Shown here: in pieces, positions 15,392 to 28,340 of the stretch | Layout: the number at the start of each line of letters is the position of its first letter | Numbering within the stretch: the first letter of the stretch is position 1 | Assembly: GCF_021732705.1 (NCBI RefSeq) | Contig: NZ_JAKFUM010000016.1 | Coordinates: 1 to 52,887 of the forward strand | Direction of reading: 5' to 3' | DNA length: 52,887 nucleotides | Source: Nevskia sp. | GTDB taxonomy: Bacteria > Pseudomonadota > Gammaproteobacteria > Nevskiales > Nevskiaceae | The notes under the pieces: model-generated | What the model was told of the DNA's origin: nothing | What the model saw: only the letters and a program-made list of their open reading frames with translations | Databases searched by the model: none | Translations under genes and position numbers: made by a program

Positions 15392-18196
15392 TCAGAAATT
15401 CAGCTTGATACCCAGCTCGGCGGTGATGCCGTACTGCTCGAACTGCGACGCCTGCCGATCGGAGCCGAAATAGGCGTAGAACGGCTCGTCGGTGATGTTG
15501 ACGACATTGACATAAAGTCGCGTGGCATCGGTGATCTGGTAACCGCCGGTGAAGTCGATCTGCAGATGCGAGTCGGCGTAGCGATCAAAGCCCGGATCAT
15601 CGAATTCCTCGACCGAATCGAGAAAGGCGCTGCGATAGGTTGCCGAAATTCGGCCACTGAAGCCGTACTTCTCGTAGCCCAGGGCCACGTTGCCGATCCG
15701 GTCGGACTGCCGCGGCAGCGCCAGCTTGTCGTCACGGAACGGCAGCGTCGCTTCGCTGTGGGTCCAGGTGACGTTGGCCGACACCAGCATGCCATCGAGT
15801 GGCGCGGGCAGGAACTTCAGCGACTGCGTGTAGCCCAGTTCCAGTCCGTAGACATCGGCGGCGTCGCCGTTGACGGCCTGAAACACTTCGTCGAACGCTT
15901 CGAAGCCGGGGCTGCCGGCAACATCGGCAATGACGATGAAGTTGTTGATCCGCTTGTAGAAAGCGCCAGCCTGAATGACACCGAGGCTGCCCGGGTAGTA
16001 CTCGAAGCCCAGATCGACATTGCGCGAGCGCAGCGCTTTCAGGTTCGGATTGCCGACTTCGGCGCGACGCTGGATCTCGCCATCGTCCTCCTCGATCTCG
16101 ATCAGCTGGCGCGGTGCGGCGTCCTCGTAACCCGGGCGCGCCAGCGCCTCGGTGTAGGCCAGTCGGCCGATCAGGCGCGGGTCGAAGCGGTAGCGGAAGT
16201 GCAGCGACGGCAGCACCGCCACCGAATTGCGGCGGGCGTTGAACGGCGCGAACTGCGGATCACCGTCGCCGGTCGCTTCGTCGATGGTGATCGCCGTGCC
16301 GCGGGCGCGGTAGCGGGTGAACTCGACGCGGGCACCGCCGAGAACGCGCAGATCGCCGAAGTTGGCGACGGCCAGTCCGTAGCCGGCGACGATGTCTTCG
16401 TCGATGCGGTAGTCGGCGCCACGCGAATCGACCGCCGAGGACGTGCCATCGAGGTCGAAGCCGCTACGGCCATCGTTGAAGAAGCGGCGGAACGCGCCCG
16501 GGTCGACTTCCGGACCGTAGTCGCCGAACGGATAGCGCCGGTTGTCGCGCGCGAAGCCGCTCAGGCTCACGTCATCGTCGCCGAAGCCGTCGTAGACGAA
16601 GGCATCGAGCTCCGCGGTCTTCTTGCGCAGGCGCAGCTTGCTGCCGATCTGGACATGGCCGTTGACGTCACCGAAGACCAGATCGTGCCGCAGGTTCAGC
16701 GCGATGCTGGTTTCGCGTTCCTCGGTGCTGGAATCCTCCAGCGTGATCTCGTCGAGCACGAAGCTGGCCGGATCATCGTTGGCGACGCCGAACAGGCGGG
16801 GGCGACGCCGGCTTTCGGCGAGCGAGTAGCCGAGATCGAGGCCCTCGCCCACGAAGGAGCCGCTGAGGTTGTTGCGGTTCTTCTCGTTGGCCAGCGAGTG
16901 GGCGACCACGTAGTCGAGCTTCCAGTCGTCGAAGCGATGCTTGGCGCCCAGCGCTGCGGTCAGGATCGCCTGCGTCTCGATCCGCGCGCGCAGGTTGCGC
17001 TCCTGCGTGGCGCCGGAGAACTGGCCGCCATTGTCGTCGAGCGCGGTGATGTCGCCATCATCGAAGACATACACGCTGGACTGCCGCGTTTCGTCATCCT
17101 CGAAGCGGCTGAACAGCGTGCGCAGATAGAACGCGTGGTCGGCGCTCGGGCGCCAATCGAAGTTCAGCGATGTCGACAGCCGCTCGCGGGTCACGCGGTA
17201 GTCGCGCTGCTCGGCTTCGGCGATGCCCGGCACCTCGCCATTGTCGGTTTCCAGCAGTGGAAAGCCCGCAGTCTCGACATTGTCTGAACCGAAGCGGCGC
17301 CGGAAGTAGCTGACGCCGGCCGACACGCCGAAGTCGTCCTTGGCATCCAGCGACAGCAGGCGCGTGGCCGTCGCCGCAAGACGGGGGCTGAGCTTTTCGC
17401 GCTGCTCGTTGTAACTGCCTTCGGTGCGCAGGCTGACCGAATTGCCGCGATCGAAGGCGGTGGCGGTCTTGATCTCGATATTGCCGCCGATGCCGTCGCC
17501 ATCGAGGTCCGGCGTCAGCGTCTTGGTGACTTCGAGGCCTTCGAGCAGGTCGTTCGCGACAACGTCGAGGTTGACCGACCGCGTGTCGCCTTCCGGGCTG
17601 CCGACGCGCACGCCGTTGATGGTCGCCGTGTTCAGCGCCGGATCGAGCCCGCGGATGACGACGAATCGGCCTTCGCCCTGATCACGCGCCAGCGACAGAC
17701 CGGGCAGACGCTGCAGCGACTCGGCGACGTTCTGGTCCGGGTACTGGTTGATCGCATCGAAGTCGACGACGGTCTTGATGTTGTCGGCCGCCCGCTGACG
17801 GTTCAGCGCACCGGCCTGCCCGGCAAGCTGACCGACGATCAGCACCTGCTTGAGCTTGACCGCGGCATCGCCGAGCACGAAATCACGTTGGACCTCGGTG
17901 CCATCGGTGACGGTGACGGCTTCGCTCGACTCCGGTGCGCCGAGATACTGCGCGGTCAGCGTGTAGGCGCCGGCCGGCACGCCGGCAAAGCGGAAGCGGC
18001 CATCGCGGTCGGCCGCGGCTTCCCGGCCCAGTTCCCGAATGCGGACCAGCGTGCCCTGCAGCGCGCTGCCGCTGTCGCCGGCGACGCTGATTCGGCCGCT
18101 GATGGTGCCATCGGCCTGCGCAGTGACGACACCGCTGCCCAGAAGAACGGCCGCCAGCCATCGCCGCGCCGGCGGCGCGCAATCCTTGCCCATCAT
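15392..18196 (-). CDS. TonB-dependent outer membrane receptor (Xanthomonas-Caulobacter type)
   Basis: About 934 aa. A signal peptide (RRWLAAVLLGSGVVTAQA) is followed by a carboxypeptidase-regulatory-like beta-sandwich (about 30-105: GTISGRISVAGDSG, DRDGRFRFAGVPAGAYTL), a TonB-box-like stretch (LKQVLIVGQ), the plug (AADNIKTVVDFDAINQYPDQ, NVAESLQRLPGLSL, FVVIRG) and a 22-strand barrel ending in aromatic LNF, the usual BAM signal. The plug is typical of receptors that import saccharides or other nutrients in Xanthomonas and Caulobacter. ATG at 18196 and 18193 are both possible; a GGGGAT-type site precedes them. It lies between phoD and an acid phosphatase gene on the same strand, suggesting uptake of a phosphorus-containing nutrient. 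The ligand is inferred only. Confidence 0.93.
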   Translation of the reverse strand: MMGKDCAPPARRWLAAVLLGSGVVTAQADGTISGRISVAGDSGSALQGTLVRIRELGREAAADRDGRFRFAGVPAGAYTLTAQYLGAPESSEAVTVTDGTEVQRDFVLGDAAVKLKQVLIVGQLAGQAGALNRQRAADNIKTVVDFDAINQYPDQNVAESLQRLPGLSLARDQGEGRFVVIRGLDPALNTATINGVRVGSPEGDTRSVNLDVVANDLLEGLEVTKTLTPDLDGDGIGGNIEIKTATAFDRGNSVSLRTEGSYNEQREKLSPRLAATATRLLSLDAKDDFGVSAGVSYFRRRFGSDNVETAGFPLLETDNGEVPGIAEAEQRDYRVTRERLSTSLNFDWRPSADHAFYLRTLFSRFEDDETRQSSVYVFDDGDITALDDNGGQFSGATQERNLRARIETQAILTAALGAKHRFDDWKLDYVVAHSLANEKNRNNLSGSFVGEGLDLGYSLAESRRRPRLFGVANDDPASFVLDEITLEDSSTEERETSIALNLRHDLVFGDVNGHVQIGSKLRLRKKTAELDAFVYDGFGDDDVSLSGFARDNRRYPFGDYGPEVDPGAFRRFFNDGRSGFDLDGTSSAVDSRGADYRIDEDIVAGYGLAVANFGDLRVLGGARVEFTRYRARGTAITIDEATGDGDPQFAPFNARRNSVAVLPSLHFRYRFDPRLIGRLAYTEALARPGYEDAAPRQLIEIEEDDGEIQRRAEVGNPNLKALRSRNVDLGFEYYPGSLGVIQAGAFYKRINNFIVIADVAGSPGFEAFDEVFQAVNGDAADVYGLELGYTQSLKFLPAPLDGMLVSANVTWTHSEATLPFRDDKLALPRQSDRIGNVALGYEKYGFSGRISATYRSAFLDSVEEFDDPGFDRYADSHLQIDFTGGYQITDATRLYVNVVNITDEPFYAYFGSDRQASQFEQYGITAELGIKLNF

Positions 18197-18351
18197 CAGA
18201 ATCCCCGTCGAAAGGTTCGCTGCACGTCCGTGTCGCAATGGCTTGCGACCCATGGCCGCAGCGCGACATCGATTTCGAACGGAGCCTAGTCAGCGGAGAT
18301 GACGAGGAAATGAATCGCGCTGCGTTCTGCAGCACGATCGCGAACACGGCT

Positions 18352-18392: not shown

Positions 18393-20084
18393 TCAGGGCG
18401 CCGGGGCCGGCGGGTTCGCCCGCGGTGTGCTGACCGTGCCGCGCCGCAGCCGGTTCTGGCCACGCGTGGTCTGGAACACGGCGCCGAGCGTCTGGCCGCT
18501 GCTGCGGGTATCGACGGTGTCGATGAACCACATCTCGTTGCTGACGCGCTGCGGCGTGATGTCGAGCAGCATGTAGCCGCGGCGGTCGAGGTTGATGTAC
18601 TTGAAGTGCGGGTTGTTGACCCGCAGCACCGGCGCCAGCGGCCCCAGATTGTCGAGGCCGGCCGACGTCACCGAGGTGCAGACAAACTCGACCGCGAGCG
18701 AACCTTCGCCGGTGAGCGCGTTGTAGCCCCCGAAACGAGGCCCCAGCAGACGGTTCGGATCCGGCGTGATGTCGGCCGCCCACGAGCAATGGATGTCGCC
18801 GGTCAGCACGACGACATTGTTGACGGCGGCATTGCTGCTGTCGCCGGCCAGCGCGTCGTACAGGCGATCGCGAACCGGGCTGTAGCCGTCCCACTGGTCG
18901 ACATTCAGGAACTGGCTCAGCGTCGTCGCGTTCGGCAGGCCAACGACCTTCAGCTGCGCGAACATCACGCCCTGCCCGATCAGCTTCCAGCGCTCCTGCG
19001 GTGCCGCGCGCAGGCCGGTGATCAGCCACTCTTCCTGCGTCTGGCCGATCAGCTGGCGCGTCGGATCGAGGAACGGACCGGTCTGGCGGAACACGCCGAG
19101 GCCCGCCTGCGGTACCAGCGGCACGTTCAGCGGCAGCTGCTCGGCGCGCGCGCCGACACGTTCTTCCAGCATGAACAGGTCGGCGAGATTGCCGATCGAG
19201 AACGAGCGGTAGTTGCGCCGCAGGTCGTTGGCGTCCGGCACGCGCGTCGGCATCCACTCGTAGTACGCCTGCAGCGCGACCGCAACGCGGGTCGCCCAGT
19301 CGCCTTCGGTATCGGGCTGATGGTTCTCGGCGCCGCCGACCCAGGCATTGTTCGCGAACTCGTGGTCGTCCCAGATCGCGATGATCGGATGCTGGCGATG
19401 CAGTTCCTGCAGTTCCGGTTCGCGCTTGTACTGACCGTGGCGCTGGCGGTAGTCGGCCAGCGTCAGGATTTCATGCGCCGGCTCGTACGTGCGGGCATTG
19501 CCGTAGTCGCCGTTGCCGTATTCGTAGATGTAGTCGCCGAGGTGCAGCACGAAGTCCAGGTCGGTGCGCTCGGCGATGCGGGCATAGGCATTGAAGAAGC
19601 CGTGCGCCAGGCTCGAGCACGAGGCCACGGCAACGCGCAGGCGATCGACATTGCCGGTCGGCAAGGTCTTGGTGCGGCCGATCGGCGACGTGACGTTGCC
19701 GACGTTGAAGCGGTAGTAGTACGTGCGGCCCGGTTCGAGGCCGCCGACATCGAGCTTCACCGTGTAATCGCGGCTGGCATCGGTGATGAAGGTGCCGGTC
19801 TGCACCAGCGCGGTCAGCGCCGGATCGGTCGCGACCACATAGCTGACGGCGCACGGCGCCGTGCCCGGCGTGGTCACGCGCGTCCACAGGATCACGCGAT
19901 CGTTCAGCGGATCACCGCTGGCGACGCCATGAACGAACGACAGTGCCCCGGCGGCGTGCGCGGCGTTCCCGCCCTCGGGCAGCAGCGGCAGCGCGCTGGC
20001 GGCCAGACCGGCCGCGGCGGACTTCAGGAAATGACGGCGATCGACACCCGAACGCTTGCCCGCCAGACGGCGCTTGTGACCCAT
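18393..20084 (-). CDS. phoD: Alkaline phosphatase D, Tat-exported
   Basis: 563 aa. A twin-arginine signal (DRRHFLKSAAAGLAASALPLL, motif at 15-21) exports it folded. A fibronectin-like N-terminal domain (PhoD_N; RVTTPG, LEPGRTYYYRFNVG) precedes the PhoD metallophosphatase domain with VASCSS, FVLHLGDYIYEYG, IAIWDDHEFANNAW and LTGDIHCSW, the set that binds Ca2+/Fe3+ and cleaves phosphomonoesters and diesters. The ATG at 20084 has GGGAG about eight nt upstream; the 13-residue upstream extension has none. The upstream region carries a Pho-box-like sequence, and a TonB receptor and an acid phosphatase follow on the same strand. Expected to act in the periplasm or outside during phosphate limitation. 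Confidence 0.95.
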   Translation of the reverse strand: MGHKRRLAGKRSGVDRRHFLKSAAAGLAASALPLLPEGGNAAHAAGALSFVHGVASGDPLNDRVILWTRVTTPGTAPCAVSYVVATDPALTALVQTGTFITDASRDYTVKLDVGGLEPGRTYYYRFNVGNVTSPIGRTKTLPTGNVDRLRVAVASCSSLAHGFFNAYARIAERTDLDFVLHLGDYIYEYGNGDYGNARTYEPAHEILTLADYRQRHGQYKREPELQELHRQHPIIAIWDDHEFANNAWVGGAENHQPDTEGDWATRVAVALQAYYEWMPTRVPDANDLRRNYRSFSIGNLADLFMLEERVGARAEQLPLNVPLVPQAGLGVFRQTGPFLDPTRQLIGQTQEEWLITGLRAAPQERWKLIGQGVMFAQLKVVGLPNATTLSQFLNVDQWDGYSPVRDRLYDALAGDSSNAAVNNVVVLTGDIHCSWAADITPDPNRLLGPRFGGYNALTGEGSLAVEFVCTSVTSAGLDNLGPLAPVLRVNNPHFKYINLDRRGYMLLDITPQRVSNEMWFIDTVDTRSSGQTLGAVFQTTRGQNRLRRGTVSTPRANPPAPAP

Positions 20085-20111
20085 GATCTCTCTCCCTTTG
20101 ATGACGCTTTT

Positions 20112-20145
20112 ATTGTTGTGCACCGTGTTGACGGTGTCGTGACAC
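20112..20145 (-). promoter_or_regulatory. Possible Pho box and -10 upstream of phoD
   Basis: On the minus strand GTGTCAC-GACA-CCGTCAA (20145 to 20128) has the two-heptamer, 11-bp-period layout of a PhoB site (consensus CTGTCAT, four bases, CTGTCAT); TGTCA and GTCA cores are kept, flanks differ. A weak -10 (AACAAT, 20117-20112) follows ten bases later, the usual spacing for PhoB-activated promoters without a -35. It lies about 45-60 bp before the phoD start codon. Confidence 0.4.
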
Positions 20146-24479: not shown

Positions 24480-25733
24480 TCAGCGCAGCACGGCTACCGT
24501 GCGCAGCGCCGCACCCGTTTCGGCAGCAAGACGCGGCTGCGGAATCGAGACCGGAAGACGCAGATGGAACTGGGTGCCGGTCTCGTCGGATGTCGCCCAG
24601 ATATGGCCGCCGTGATAGGCGGCAATCTTGCGGCAGATCGCGAGGCCGATGCCGGTACCGTCGTACTCCTCGGGTGAATGCAGCTTGCGGAAGATCGCGA
24701 AGATGCTTTCGAGATGTTCCTGCGCGATGCCGATGCCGTTGTCGGCGACGACCAGTTCCCAGTGGTCGCCGGCATCGGCCAGATTGCCGGCCGCATCGGT
24801 GATGACGCCGGTCTGGCGCTCGATCGTCAGCGTGACGCGCGGACGCACGTCCGGCCGCTGGAACTTGATGGCATTGCCGATCAGGTTCTGCAGCAACTGC
24901 ACCAGCAGGCCGTGATTGGCCTCGATTTCCGGGAGCGCCCCGAACACGATCTCGGCCCCGCTGCGATTGATCGCACTCTGCAGGGCCTTGATCGCGCGGG
25001 TGACGCTGTCGGCCAGCGGCTTGCGCTCGAAGCGTGCATCCTCGGCGCGGCCGACGCGCGACAGCGCCAGCAGGTCCTGGATCAGCAGCTGCATCTGGCG
25101 CGCGCCCTTGTCGATGTAGTCGAGGAACTCCAGCGCGTCGCCGTCCAGCTTGTCGCGATGACGCCGGGTCAGCAACTGCGAAAAGCCGGAAATCGTCCGC
25201 AGCGGCGCCTGCAGGTCATGCGAGGTGATGTAGGCGAACTGCTCGAGTTCCTTGACGGCCCGATTCAGCTCCTCGAGCGAGTGCTTCAGTTCCCGCTCGG
25301 CCTGCTCGCGCGTCGCGACTTCCTCGCGCAGCCGCTGGTTGGCCTCGGCCAGTTCCTCCGGCGAGCGCATCGCCAGCAGCTTCGGCACCAGCGGGATGAT
25401 GGCGATGGCCGTTGCCAGCGACACCGCCGCCGTCAGCGCCTTCTCGATGCCCTGCAGGTAGTAGATCGGCTTCCAGACGGTGATGATGCCGAGGATGTGG
25501 CTGAGTCCGCACAGCACGATGAAGGCCGCGAACAGCACCAGCACCCAGCCGAGCGACAGCGGCGTTCGCCGCTTGCGGATGAACCACAGCAAGGTCGCCG
25601 GGATCATCAGATAGGCGACCGCGATGATCGCGTCCGACACCACGTGCAGCCAGATCAGGTCCGGCCGCAACTGGAAGCAGACACCGTGAGGAAGCAGGCC
25701 CGACGCGCCGACGGCATCCAGCAGTATCGACAT
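24480..25733 (-). CDS. Histidine kinase with ETR1-like (ethylene-receptor-type) membrane domain
   Basis: 417 aa. Three transmembrane helices (about 30-52, 62-85, 98-118) form the sensor. Its residues line up with the copper/ethylene-binding domain of plant ETR1: Asp34, Tyr41 and Pro45 in helix 1 (ETR1 Asp25, Tyr32, Pro36, identical spacing) and Cys75/His79 in FIVLCGLSH of helix 2 (ETR1 Cys65/His69, the copper ligands). ETR1's GAF domain is absent; a coiled coil (127-165) leads straight to a HisKA domain (SHDLQAPLR, His172) and a HATPase domain with N-box NLIGNAIKF (283-291), DNGIGI (331-336) and GTGIGLAI (359-366). It should bind copper and perhaps ethylene and phosphorylate the receivers encoded 7 bp and further upstream. 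Ethylene binding is inferred from alignment by eye. Confidence 0.88.
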   Translation of the reverse strand: MSILLDAVGASGLLPHGVCFQLRPDLIWLHVVSDAIIAVAYLMIPATLLWFIRKRRTPLSLGWVLVLFAAFIVLCGLSHILGIITVWKPIYYLQGIEKALTAAVSLATAIAIIPLVPKLLAMRSPEELAEANQRLREEVATREQAERELKHSLEELNRAVKELEQFAYITSHDLQAPLRTISGFSQLLTRRHRDKLDGDALEFLDYIDKGARQMQLLIQDLLALSRVGRAEDARFERKPLADSVTRAIKALQSAINRSGAEIVFGALPEIEANHGLLVQLLQNLIGNAIKFQRPDVRPRVTLTIERQTGVITDAAGNLADAGDHWELVVADNGIGIAQEHLESIFAIFRKLHSPEEYDGTGIGLAICRKIAAYHGGHIWATSDETGTQFHLRLPVSIPQPRLAAETGAALRTVAVLR

Positions 25734-25740
25734 GCGAAGC

Positions 25741-27489
25741 CTACGACAGGAATGTCGGTGGGCCGATGCGCCAGCGCATCGGCAACTCGGCCGCGATCAG
25801 CGCCTCGCACAGCGCATCGCCCTGCAGATAGCGGCAACCCAGCGTGCGCAGCTGCTGGCGGCGACCATCATCGTCGACACCGGTTGCAATCAGGTCGAGG
25901 CTCAAGCTGGTCGAGGCGCCGATCGCGGCCGTCACCGCGCGACGCACGCTGCCGCCCGGGCGATCGGTCGGCAGCGTCGCCACGACATCGCGCCCGATCT
26001 TGATGCCGTCGAGCGGCATCGTGCTGATGGCGAGCAAGCCGTCGGCACCGCTCAGATAGTCGTCGAGTACGACACCGTAGCCTTCGTCGCGGAACAGGCG
26101 CAGGCGCGACAGCAGTTCCGGCGTGGCGTCGGCCAGAACTTCGGCCGGCACTTCCAGCCGGATGTCCTGCGGCGGCAGATTGCGCGCGGCGAGTTGGTCG
26201 CGCAGGAAACTCGCGAGATCGGGCTGCTCCAGCAGCACCGAATCGAGGTTCAGCCCCAGCGATGGCAGATCGAAACCGCCGTCGCGCCAGACCCGAAGCT
26301 GGCTCAACGCGGTCCGGATCAGCGTGAAGCCGGCTTCGCGGCGGGTATCGAGCGATGCCGTGCGGTAGGCGATGGCATCGCTGGCCGACCACAGCACTTC
26401 GACGCCGACGAAGCGCTGCTCGCGCAGGTCGAACCACGGCTGGTACAGCGGCACCAGCGCATCCAGCGGCGAGCCGGACCAGAGCCGCTCGGCGCCGATG
26501 CTGGCCGGATGCGCGGTCACCTGCCCTTCCCAGACGCAGACGCCGCCACCGGCACGCAGGGCGCGGAACATCGCCTGTTCGGCGTGTTCGACCAGCTCAT
26601 CGAGCGTTTCGCCGTCGCGCGGGTAGACCGCCACACCGATGAACGGCACCAGTTGCAGCGGCGCGGCATCGATGGTTCGCAGCATTTCGTTGAAGCGCCG
26701 GGCCACGATCACGGCATCGAAGTTGACGTCGGTCGGCACCAGGATCGAGACGAACTCGCCGCCGCCGGTCGCCGCCACGGTATCCGACTTGCGCACGCTC
26801 TCGGCCAGCAGCGTGCCGATCCGGCGGATCAGCGCATCGGTGGCGATTCGGCTGGCGTCATCACCGCCGGCCGGGAGGCCATCGATGCCGACATAGACGA
26901 TGCCCAGTTCGCAGCCGGTGCGTTCGGCGAAGGCAATCGCGCGCCGGGCACGATCCTCGAACAGCGGACGGTTCGGCAGGCCGGTGACCGGGTCCTGACT
27001 GGCGCTGGCGAACGATTCCTGACGCGCGGTGTTGAGCTGCACCAGTTGCCGATGGTTCTGCACGGCGAAGCGGATGCGGCGCAACAGCAGGCCGGCGTCG
27101 TAACGGCCCTTGACCAGGTAGTCCTGCACGCCGAGCTGCATCGTCTGCTGCGCCATGTCATCGCTGTCGAAGCCGGTCAGCACGACCATCGCGACATCGG
27201 GATCGACCGCGCGCAGCGCCTCGATCGTCGCCACGCCCTGGCCGTCCGGCAAGCCGAGATCGACCAGCACGCACGAGAATTCCATGCGGTTCAGTGCCTG
27301 CGTCGCGTCGGACAGCCGCCGCACGACCTGCATCATCACCTCGCCGCGCTGGATCGCATCGCGCAGGTGCTCCTGCAACAGACGCGAATCGGCGGGCGAA
27401 TCCTCGATCAGCAGCAGCGCCAGCGGCTCAAGCCGTTCGACGGCATTGAGATTGTCGTCATCGGAATCGATCGGCCAGTCAGCACTCAT
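25741..27489 (-). CDS. Receiver protein with degenerate GGDEF and EAL domains
   Basis: 582 aa. REC domain (about 22-145): acidic pair Glu29/Asp30, phospho-acceptor Asp77 in VLVDLGLPDG, LTGF at 104-107 and Lys127, all intact. A GGDEF-like domain (about 160-320, starting DPVTGLPNR) has GGGEF at 242-246, so the metal-binding acidic residue of GGDEF/GGEEF is glycine. The EAL-like domain (about 340-570) has EVL (364-366) in place of EAL, DDYLSG (476-481) in place of DDFGTG and a QGDALCEAL end in place of QGYLFGRP, with IKI kept. Loss in both domains suggests a c-di-GMP binding or protein-interaction output rather than synthesis or hydrolysis; weak EAL activity cannot be excluded. It overlaps the upstream receiver gene by 4 bp and precedes the ETR1-like kinase by 7 bp. 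Confidence 0.9.
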   Translation of the reverse strand: MSADWPIDSDDDNLNAVERLEPLALLLIEDSPADSRLLQEHLRDAIQRGEVMMQVVRRLSDATQALNRMEFSCVLVDLGLPDGQGVATIEALRAVDPDVAMVVLTGFDSDDMAQQTMQLGVQDYLVKGRYDAGLLLRRIRFAVQNHRQLVQLNTARQESFASASQDPVTGLPNRPLFEDRARRAIAFAERTGCELGIVYVGIDGLPAGGDDASRIATDALIRRIGTLLAESVRKSDTVAATGGGEFVSILVPTDVNFDAVIVARRFNEMLRTIDAAPLQLVPFIGVAVYPRDGETLDELVEHAEQAMFRALRAGGGVCVWEGQVTAHPASIGAERLWSGSPLDALVPLYQPWFDLREQRFVGVEVLWSASDAIAYRTASLDTRREAGFTLIRTALSQLRVWRDGGFDLPSLGLNLDSVLLEQPDLASFLRDQLAARNLPPQDIRLEVPAEVLADATPELLSRLRLFRDEGYGVVLDDYLSGADGLLAISTMPLDGIKIGRDVVATLPTDRPGGSVRRAVTAAIGASTSLSLDLIATGVDDDGRRQQLRTLGCRYLQGDALCEALIAAELPMRWRIGPPTFLS

Positions 27490-28001
27490 GACGCGACTCC
27501 GGCCGCAAGCGGCACATCGGGTTTTGGCGGCAGCACGACGAGGCGCAGCCAGAAGTCGCGCAGTGCTTCGGCCAGACGGAAGAAATCGCCGAGATCGACC
27601 GGCTTCGACAGATAACAGTTGGCATGCGCGTCGTAGCTGGCGGTGATGTCGCTTTCGGCGGTGGAGGTGGACAGCACCAGCACCGGCGTGCGTCGCAAGG
27701 CGGGGTCCTGCTTGATCGTTCGCAACACTTCGCGGCCATCCATGCCCGGTAGATTGAGGTCCAGGAGGACGATGTCGGGCTTGCGGCAGCCCCCATATTC
27801 GCCCTCGCTGCGGATCGCCCGCAGCGCGCGTTCGCCGTCACCGGCGATCAGCAGTTCGTGCGGCAAACCGGTTTCGCGCAACACTTCCTGCATCAGTCGG
27901 ACATCGGCAATGCTGTCCTCGACCAGCAGGATGATGGCGACGCGCGGTGTCGTGCCGGTGACGACCGGCACTTCAGCGACAGAGCTGTTGGAATTCGGCA
28001 T
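27486..28001 (-). CDS. Stand-alone response regulator (Rcp1-like receiver)
   Basis: 171 aa, essentially one CheY-like receiver: Glu28/Asp29 in LLVEDSIAD, phospho-acceptor Asp81 in LLDLNLPGMDGREVL, LSTS at 110-113 and Lys133 in LSKPVDL. The fit is closest to single-domain regulators paired with phytochrome-like or hybrid kinases (Rcp1 type). There is no DNA-binding or enzymatic output, so it probably works by phosphotransfer or by docking. The ATG at 28001 starts a short non-conserved leader; the frame upstream of it is non-coding. The stop overlaps the start of the GGDEF/EAL gene (ATGA). First gene of a three-gene signalling operon that ends with the ETR1-like kinase. Confidence 0.9.
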   Translation of the reverse strand: MPNSNSSVAEVPVVTGTTPRVAIILLVEDSIADVRLMQEVLRETGLPHELLIAGDGERALRAIRSEGEYGGCRKPDIVLLDLNLPGMDGREVLRTIKQDPALRRTPVLVLSTSTAESDITASYDAHANCYLSKPVDLGDFFRLAEALRDFWLRLVVLPPKPDVPLAAGVAS

Positions 28002-28340
28002 GACCTGACCTGTCTGAGCGATGCGCCTGCCGCTGGCGGGGCACCTGGTTTTATCGATCCGGATCGCGCAACGTGCGCCATGCGATCCGTCCGGTTCGTG
28101 CAGCTTCGGCAATTTAAGCGTCGGCCCGACAATGTCATGGGTTTTCATACCGATGGCGTCCCCGTGCAGACAGACGGCGAGCGTGACCACGCCATGATTC
28201 CCGCGACAGTCAGGCCGCGACAGCTTGCGCCGCCCGAGATGAATTGCGGTTGAACGTCGATGCGGCCGACGCAAAGGCCGCGTGACGGGGTCGCCAGCGG
28301 CTAGACTGCGCCGCCCGTTTCCGATCCCTCCCGATATCCG
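28002..28340. other. Divergent intergenic region
   Basis: 339 bp between the divergent signalling operon and the EamA transporter. It should hold both promoters, but no pair of good hexamers was found; TAGACT at 28302-28307 could be a -10 for the transporter. A hairpin at 28260-28283 (GCGGCC, loop GACGCAAA, GGCCGC) is the only clear structure. No small open frame with a ribosome binding site is seen. Confidence 0.5.

Follow-up and report, generated by a model that had tools for sequence, protein, structure and literature searches.

Functional bacterial ethylene receptors have already been published from Azospirillum (PMC11819568) and from Synechocystis (PMC5812497; PMC7700396). The AzoEtr1/AzoRR-etr1 system of Azospirillum brasilense, as far as it is described in PMC11819568, resembles the locus considered here in having a three-helix ethylene-binding domain (EBD) with the same seven residues and the same lysine (Lys98 here), a histidine kinase and an adjacent gene for a single receiver (REC) domain, and AzoEtr1 binds ethylene by this domain. 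Unlike the present receptor, AzoEtr1 includes PAS and has its REC gene downstream; the account of its gene neighbourhood in PMC11819568 does not mention a REC-GGDEF-EAL gene such as the one found here. A. brasilense responds to ethylene with lower c-di-GMP, through a pathway that the same paper calls unknown (PMC11819568). SynEtr1/UirS (Synechocystis slr1212) likewise combines an EBD with a histidine kinase, is followed by response regulators and is reported to bind ethylene, but it has a chromophore-binding GAF domain and senses light, whereas the EBD described below is joined straight to the kinase (PMC5812497; PMC7700396).

The plant receptors ETR1 and ERS1 share the membrane domain and the seven residues. 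They differ in the GAF domain placed between membrane domain and kinase, and in signalling mainly via a serine/threonine kinase (PMC6586836; PMC11819568). Two further systems bring receptor kinases together with c-di-GMP-type proteins. PcrK-PcrR of Xanthomonas campestris pairs a plant-hormone receptor kinase with a c-di-GMP-type response regulator, but senses cytokinin through a CHASE domain, and PcrR has phosphodiesterase activity (PMC7700396). GeiEtr2 of Geitlerinema is an EBD kinase grouped with a diguanylate-cyclase-domain gene, but it contains PAS-PAC-GAF and a C-terminal receiver (PMC6682694).

Here we analyse a stretch of 52,887 nucleotides from Nevskia sp. (hereafter the window; assembly GCF_021732705.1, contig NZ_JAKFUM010000016.1), which encodes an EBD-kinase in an operon with two response regulators. 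The protein is probably a copper(I)-dependent membrane ethylene receptor kinase, directly coupled, that signals via a single REC protein while its c-di-GMP branch decays.

Genomes and comparison sets

The relatives searched were 100 genomes, the organism's own and 99 others, mostly from its genus, family and order. From the 64 EBD places found, 60 (the own locus included) were read with their surroundings and form set 1; left out were G069 and G043, on short contigs, a 29-residue end fragment (G029:C169) and a match below cut-off (G087). Set 2, drawn from named genomes, comprises the best 80 of 558 loci, with 71 EBD-kinase rows, and overlaps set 1. Residues were counted in 125 different EBDs, after removal of identical cores and of matches shorter than 85 residues. 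The motifs of the c-di-GMP partner were read by alignment with solved GGDEF-EAL proteins and with the relatives' copies, using what we take to be the eight catalytic positions of EAL domains. The sequence used for the N-terminus of ETR1 is presumably the correct one, and the numbering of its known residues agrees. The seven ethylene-binding residues of ETR1 are in part those that we take Wang 2006 to list.

The receptor and its family

The features of the locus are collected in Table 1. A sequence-only reading of the window had proposed an ETR1-like copper- and ethylene-binding domain on this kinase, and the domain is real. Pfam ETR1_N (PF25487) matches residues 26-122 with 118.4 bits (cut-off 27; E 1.7e-34), and all copper and ethylene residues are kept: D34, Y41, I44, P45, I72, C75 and H79 align with D25, Y32, I35, P36, I62, C65 and H69 of ETR1 (7/7), and Lys98 with Lys91. 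Asp34, Tyr41, Pro45, Cys75 and His79 are where that reading had put them, with the spacing of ETR1. I35, P36, I62, C65 and H69 are named as ethylene-binding residues in PMC6586836, and D25, C65, H69 and K91 of ETR1 are named in PMC11819568. The seven residues are needed in ETR1; their presence in the window protein is no proof that it binds ethylene.

Table 1. Coordinates of the operon and of the domains encoded in it
Feature	Position	Strand	Details
EBD-histidine kinase gene	24480..25733	-	417 aa; ATG at 25733, stop ends at 24480; Pfam ETR1_N + HisKA + HATPase_c
ETR1_N / ethylene-binding domain	25368..25658	-	D34, Y41, I44, P45, I72, C75, H79, K98
Helical linker	25221..25361	-	aa 125-171, membrane-domain end to just before His172
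HisKA dimerisation/phospho-acceptor domain	25053..25247	-	aa 163-227; His172; 49 bits (Pfam)
HATPase_c domain	24546..24908	-	aa 276-396; 84 bits (Pfam)
REC-GGDEF-EAL response regulator	25741..27489	-	582 aa; REC motifs intact, GGDEF and EAL sites degenerate
Receiver of REC-GGDEF-EAL	27106..27414	-	aa 26-128; motifs IEDS, LVDLGLPD, LTGF, LVKG
Degenerate GGDEF domain	26548..27003	-	aa 163-314; RKSD (RxxD I-site) kept, GGGEF for GGDEF
Degenerate EAL domain	25804..26460	-	aa 344-562; Thr for Glu of AEG
Single-domain response regulator	27486..28001	-	171 aa; ATG at 28001; Rcp1-like; Pfam Response_reg
Sigma-70-like site	28111..28138	-	upstream of operon; 9/12, weak; 1 found vs 0.3 expected

With both an H-box histidine (His172) and HATPase_c, the protein is a HisKA-type histidine kinase; a spacer of 37 aa stands where plant-type receptors have GAF between membrane domain and kinase. 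The AlphaFold2 model (a metal-free monomer built on 32 homologues; mean pLDDT 85.5, pTM 0.64) has three N-terminal helices (aa 24-54, 62-87 and 91-112), whose membrane insertion is predicted. A profile of 24 EBDs found no solved EBD structure in the PDB up to E 1. Among solved structures, the best match to the kinase part comes from the bacteriophytochrome RpBphP2 (8f71, kinase domain), and the 50 of 482 fold-search matches listed are all histidine-kinase entries. Against the congeneric loci L039, L041 and L058, constraint within the receptor is strongest in the EBD, with pN/pS of 0.34, 0.24 and 0.24, as compared with 0.41, 0.39 and 0.39 for the kinase core and 0.37, 0.45 and 0.35 for the linker.

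Just before helix 1 there is also an H-x(1,2)-C motif (His16 and Cys19; aa 16-19, window 25677-25688), which recurs near the N-terminus in 114 of the 125 bacterial EBDs, while the cysteines of ETR1 in this region are different ones; the motif could conceivably form a further site for a metal or a disulfide.

The domain itself is widespread. ETR1_N matches 57 of the 99 relatives at E 1e-3 (56 over cut-off), 23 of 299 genomes across the phylum (the own genome among them) and, outside the window's class, 25 of 199 genomes in the order of G247 (24 over cut-off), as against 0 of 14 control genomes. Since 56/99 relatives carry it and matches extend through the phylum, ETR1_N in a gammaproteobacterium is not new, and the receptor extends a documented family as a further copy of a known domain. 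A six-frame search of its own genome found one copy. Among the best 80 of 558 named loci, the five most identical EBDs are those of three MAGs called Nevskia (87, 80 and 80%), of a locus called Lysobacteraceae (82%) and of one called Gammaproteobacteria bacterium (77%). With three of five called Nevskia, a genus of Nevskiales in the Gammaproteobacteria, the sequence-only reading's assignment of the organism to the gammaproteobacteria is supported. The equivalent of C65 is kept in 124/125 bacterial EBDs, that of H69 in 122/125, and all seven residues in 95/125.

Some variants stand apart. The EBD-kinases of a Stagnimonas aquatica contig (L051) and a Nevskiaceae MAG contig (L057) have Tyr for the copper-ligand His69, also lack the N-terminal Cys of H-x-x-C, and lie beside a partner gene with a changed GGDEF motif; judged by these replacements, they are candidate receptors that lost copper. 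Three further EBDs (L195, L197 and L199) sit on HWE-type kinases, with PAS in L195 and none in L197 and L199.

From membrane domain to kinase

The sequence-only reading had also held that the usual GAF domain is missing and that the sensor couples directly to the kinase through a coiled coil. The coupling is supported: in the AlphaFold2 model one unbroken helix (aa 125-191) leads from the membrane domain through the phospho-acceptor, and linker lengths mostly hold a coiled-coil register. The absence of GAF stands as an observation, as Pfam finds neither GAF nor PAS in the window kinase, but it is not unusual. In other genomes, where this architecture was to be sought, it proved common: the EBD-to-kinase spacer is at most 80 aa in 27/27 set-1 kinases (exactly 37 in 21) and in 29/71 of set 2 (best 80 of 558), where 5 more have 81-150 aa and 37 longer spacers, and AzoEtr1 is itself an EBD-PAS-kinase. 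Given the 27/27 in set 1, GAF absence was rejected as a special trait. In the Pfam tally of 32 proteins chosen from the shorter EBD-kinases GAF families are not found and PAS families match one.

Coiled coils tolerate insertions of whole heptads and a four-residue stutter (PMC6798134). From Pro117 to His172 the window kinase measures 55 residues, and every set-1 kinase measured (26 of the 27) differs from this by zero or a multiple of 7. A first linker set covered spacers up to 110 aa in sets 1 and 2, which share genes, and 53 of its 58 proteins were measured (L081, L143, L164, L116 and L138 had no anchor). The length differences in these 53 short-spacer kinases are -14, -7, 0, +7, +14, +11, +18, +25 and +39, so that 8/8 distinct non-zero values equal 0 or 4 modulo 7. 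In fresh loci (L169-L211), where six of the seven short-spacer proteins were measured (all but L175), two of four distinct lengths fall in the predicted classes (-3 and +4; P about 0.32 alone), the misses being -5 in L171 and +8 in L187/L188. Pooled, 10/12 lengths fit (P 1.3e-4, with classes picked after the first set had been seen), whereas lengths in long-spacer proteins scatter over all seven modulo classes. A strict 7n / 7n+4 rule was rejected on the 2/4 of the fresh loci; because only these fit, the linker register is a tendency, and supports the coupling without being a law.

The operon and its degenerate partner

The three genes lie on one strand in the order single REC, REC-GGDEF-EAL, EBD-kinase, an arrangement absent from the sequence-only reading. 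The first two overlap by ATGA, and the stop of the second lies 7 nt before the kinase ATG. The Pfam Response_reg match of the first protein comes from a longer reading of the same frame; its closest solved structure is Rcp1 (PDB 1i3c, E 4.2e-43), and it consists of REC only. With a RpBphP2-like kinase and an Rcp1-like regulator, a phytochrome-type pair therefore carries an ethylene-type sensor. No published description of this operon was found among the matches listed; subscription papers may show such EBD fusions. Elsewhere on the minus strand, judged by eye from their translations, the window encodes a TonB-dependent-receptor-like protein (15392-18253) and a PhoD-like phosphatase (18393-20123).

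The single REC gene accompanies 25 of the 27 set-1 EBD-kinases. Single REC and REC-GGDEF-EAL occur together at 17/27 loci, the remainder having REC and REC-EAL (2), REC only (6) or neither (2). In set 2 (best 80 of 558), all three genes are found in 12 of the 71 EBD-kinase rows and the REC-EAL form in one. Among these 13 loci, Saccharospirillum salsuginis (L139) provides the only one outside Nevskiales, as judged by record titles or matches to genomes of the same order, and the spacer of its kinase is longer. There the EBD-kinase comes first, followed by REC-GGDEF-EAL and REC, an arrangement different from that of the window, and the GGDEF and EAL motifs are intact.

The gene order had first suggested a live c-di-GMP output in the window, an idea that was dropped after the motif check and in view of uneven conservation. 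Where active diguanylate cyclases have GG[DE]EF, the partner protein reads GGGEF. Active EAL phosphodiesterases have all eight catalytic residues and an intact loop 6; here seven of the eight positions are kept (E, N, E, D, D, K and Q), AEG reads ATG, and loop 6 reads DDYLSGAD as against DDFGTGYS. The Glu of AEG is replaced in 19/19 set-1 operon copies, and GGDEF is intact in 10/17 three-domain copies and changed in 7/17 (the window included), the two REC-EAL copies having no GGDEF. Between the window and its congener L039 the receiver is 82% identical, the GGDEF domain 56% and the EAL domain 48%, beside 82% for the EBD and 77% for the kinase core. By these alignments the partner's receiver is kept while its enzyme parts drift.

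States of the partner gene cluster on a tree of the 27 EBD-kinases. Within the window's genus the gene is missing at two places, in L056 and in the group L058/L061/L063/L064; a shared origin of the GGDEF change with Stagnimonas falls on a weak branch (80/51). No close copy was found elsewhere in those five congener assemblies, where the best matches are 27-29% identical, while the search recovered its positive controls at 56% identity in G010 and, in two pieces, at 62 and 77% in G016. In the latter genome the REC-GGDEF-EAL gene is split into two frames of 127 and 498 aa (L041:4375-6115; counted among the 17 loci above), either by a frameshift in the gene or by an assembly error.

That the phosphorylated REC-GGDEF-EAL protein still makes or degrades c-di-GMP in this organism is improbable. 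Such a role would suit the presence of a REC-GGDEF-EAL or REC-EAL gene at 19/27 set-1 loci, the intact GGDEF motif in 10 of 17 partners, the same gene kinds with both motifs intact in Saccharospirillum, the RxxD site and seven of eight presumed EAL positions kept in the window, and, in Azospirillum, the fall of c-di-GMP under ethylene (PMC11819568). Against it stand the GGGEF, the ATG for AEG and the changed loop 6, enzyme domains less conserved than the receiver, and five congeners that have an EBD-kinase and no close copy of the partner. The degenerate middle gene and its loss at two places in the tree could mean that the whole system is vestigial and senses nothing any more. We regard this as very unlikely, since both the receptor and the single REC have kept their full length and their motifs, are under purifying selection (whole-gene pN/pS 0.20-0.42 against four congeners) and are retained where the middle gene is missing.

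Direct fusions to GGDEF and the nature of the signal

A second arrangement is common among the relatives: 28 of the 60 set-1 EBDs are fused to GGDEF, three of these also with EAL, and with the 17 + 2 operons 47/60 are fused to, or in an operon with, GGDEF/EAL. In the fusions GG[DE]EF is intact in 28/28 and the RxxD site in 27/28. Among 17 congeners the loci found are of the kinase form only in 7 and of the GGDEF form only in 8; one has both (G008, with a weaker kinase match) and one neither (G014), though draft genomes may miss genes.

The fusions (e.g. L046, L066, L068, L071, L072, L074 and L079) keep the copper Cys-His pair in 27/28. Asp25 is replaced in 20/28 (by His in 9 and Asn in 7), and in 16 of these 20 Lys/Arg91 is lost as well; from these replacements, a changed ligand or polarity is possible. 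Of the 125 EBDs, 99 keep both Asp25 and Lys/Arg91, 20 have lost both, one has Asp alone and five have Lys/Arg alone (Fisher P 1.5e-17, without correction for descent). Both are kept in 80/82 kinases against 9/30 GGDEF fusions, while Cys and His stay in nearly all. This pairing agrees with the polar D25-K91 bond, bearing on output, that is predicted in PMC11819568.

These counts bear on what the window receptor senses. Its copper site might respond to something other than ethylene, such as copper, CO, acetylene or redox/oxygen, the helical route to the kinase being unchanged. Cys and His are present in nearly all bacterial copies, yet Asp25, which is needed in ETR1, is replaced in 20/28 fusions, so the domain tolerates a changed ligand site; as a weak further pointer, the own genome has no ACC deaminase over cut-off (38 vs 392 bits). 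We nevertheless consider another signal rather unlikely here, since the window keeps Asp34 and all seven residues, Asp25 is kept in 80/82 EBD-kinases, and an ethylene-binding receptor, AzoEtr1, has the same seven (PMC11819568).

Proposed mechanism

In the ethylene-receptor reading that we prefer, Cys75 and His79 of helix 2 would hold Cu(I), which would bind ethylene as in ETR1, SynEtr1 and AzoEtr1. Binding would shift the three-helix bundle through the Asp34-Lys98 pair of helices 1 and 3, and the shift, to judge from sequence and model, would reach the kinase core by way of a single unbroken helix, without GAF or PAS domains as intermediates. His172 would then be autophosphorylated and its phosphate transferred both to the single REC protein, which resembles Rcp1, and to the REC-GGDEF-EAL receiver, the two partners that we infer from gene order; the direction of the response we likewise infer. 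The second protein is predicted from its motifs to be unable to make or hydrolyse c-di-GMP here, and would at most bind it or act as a phosphate sink. Being predicted enzymatically dead, it leaves the single REC protein as probably the working output.

Across Nevskiales we tentatively suggest, as a possibility, that the EBD serves c-di-GMP control as a plug-in gas sensor, connected in two ways, through the kinase operon with REC-GGDEF-EAL and by direct fusion to an active GGDEF. The two wirings would be nearly mutually exclusive in the window's genus, the window having the kinase form with a dying c-di-GMP enzyme, and the GGDEF fusions, with the copper Cys-His kept and Asp25 usually lost, may form a class of copper gas sensors whose ligand or polarity has naturally changed.

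Significance

The useful part of these results is comparative, and goes beyond another member of a documented receptor family. In the minimal ethylene-receptor-like kinases of this lineage the membrane domain is joined directly to the kinase and the linkers differ by whole heptads, and neighbouring genomes form a natural series of intact, degenerate and lost c-di-GMP partners. The operon is a candidate route for the ethylene-linked fall in c-di-GMP in Azospirillum (PMC11819568). Natural rather than engineered variants thus give access to two questions, the control of a kinase by an ethylene domain and the route of the signal to biofilm control.
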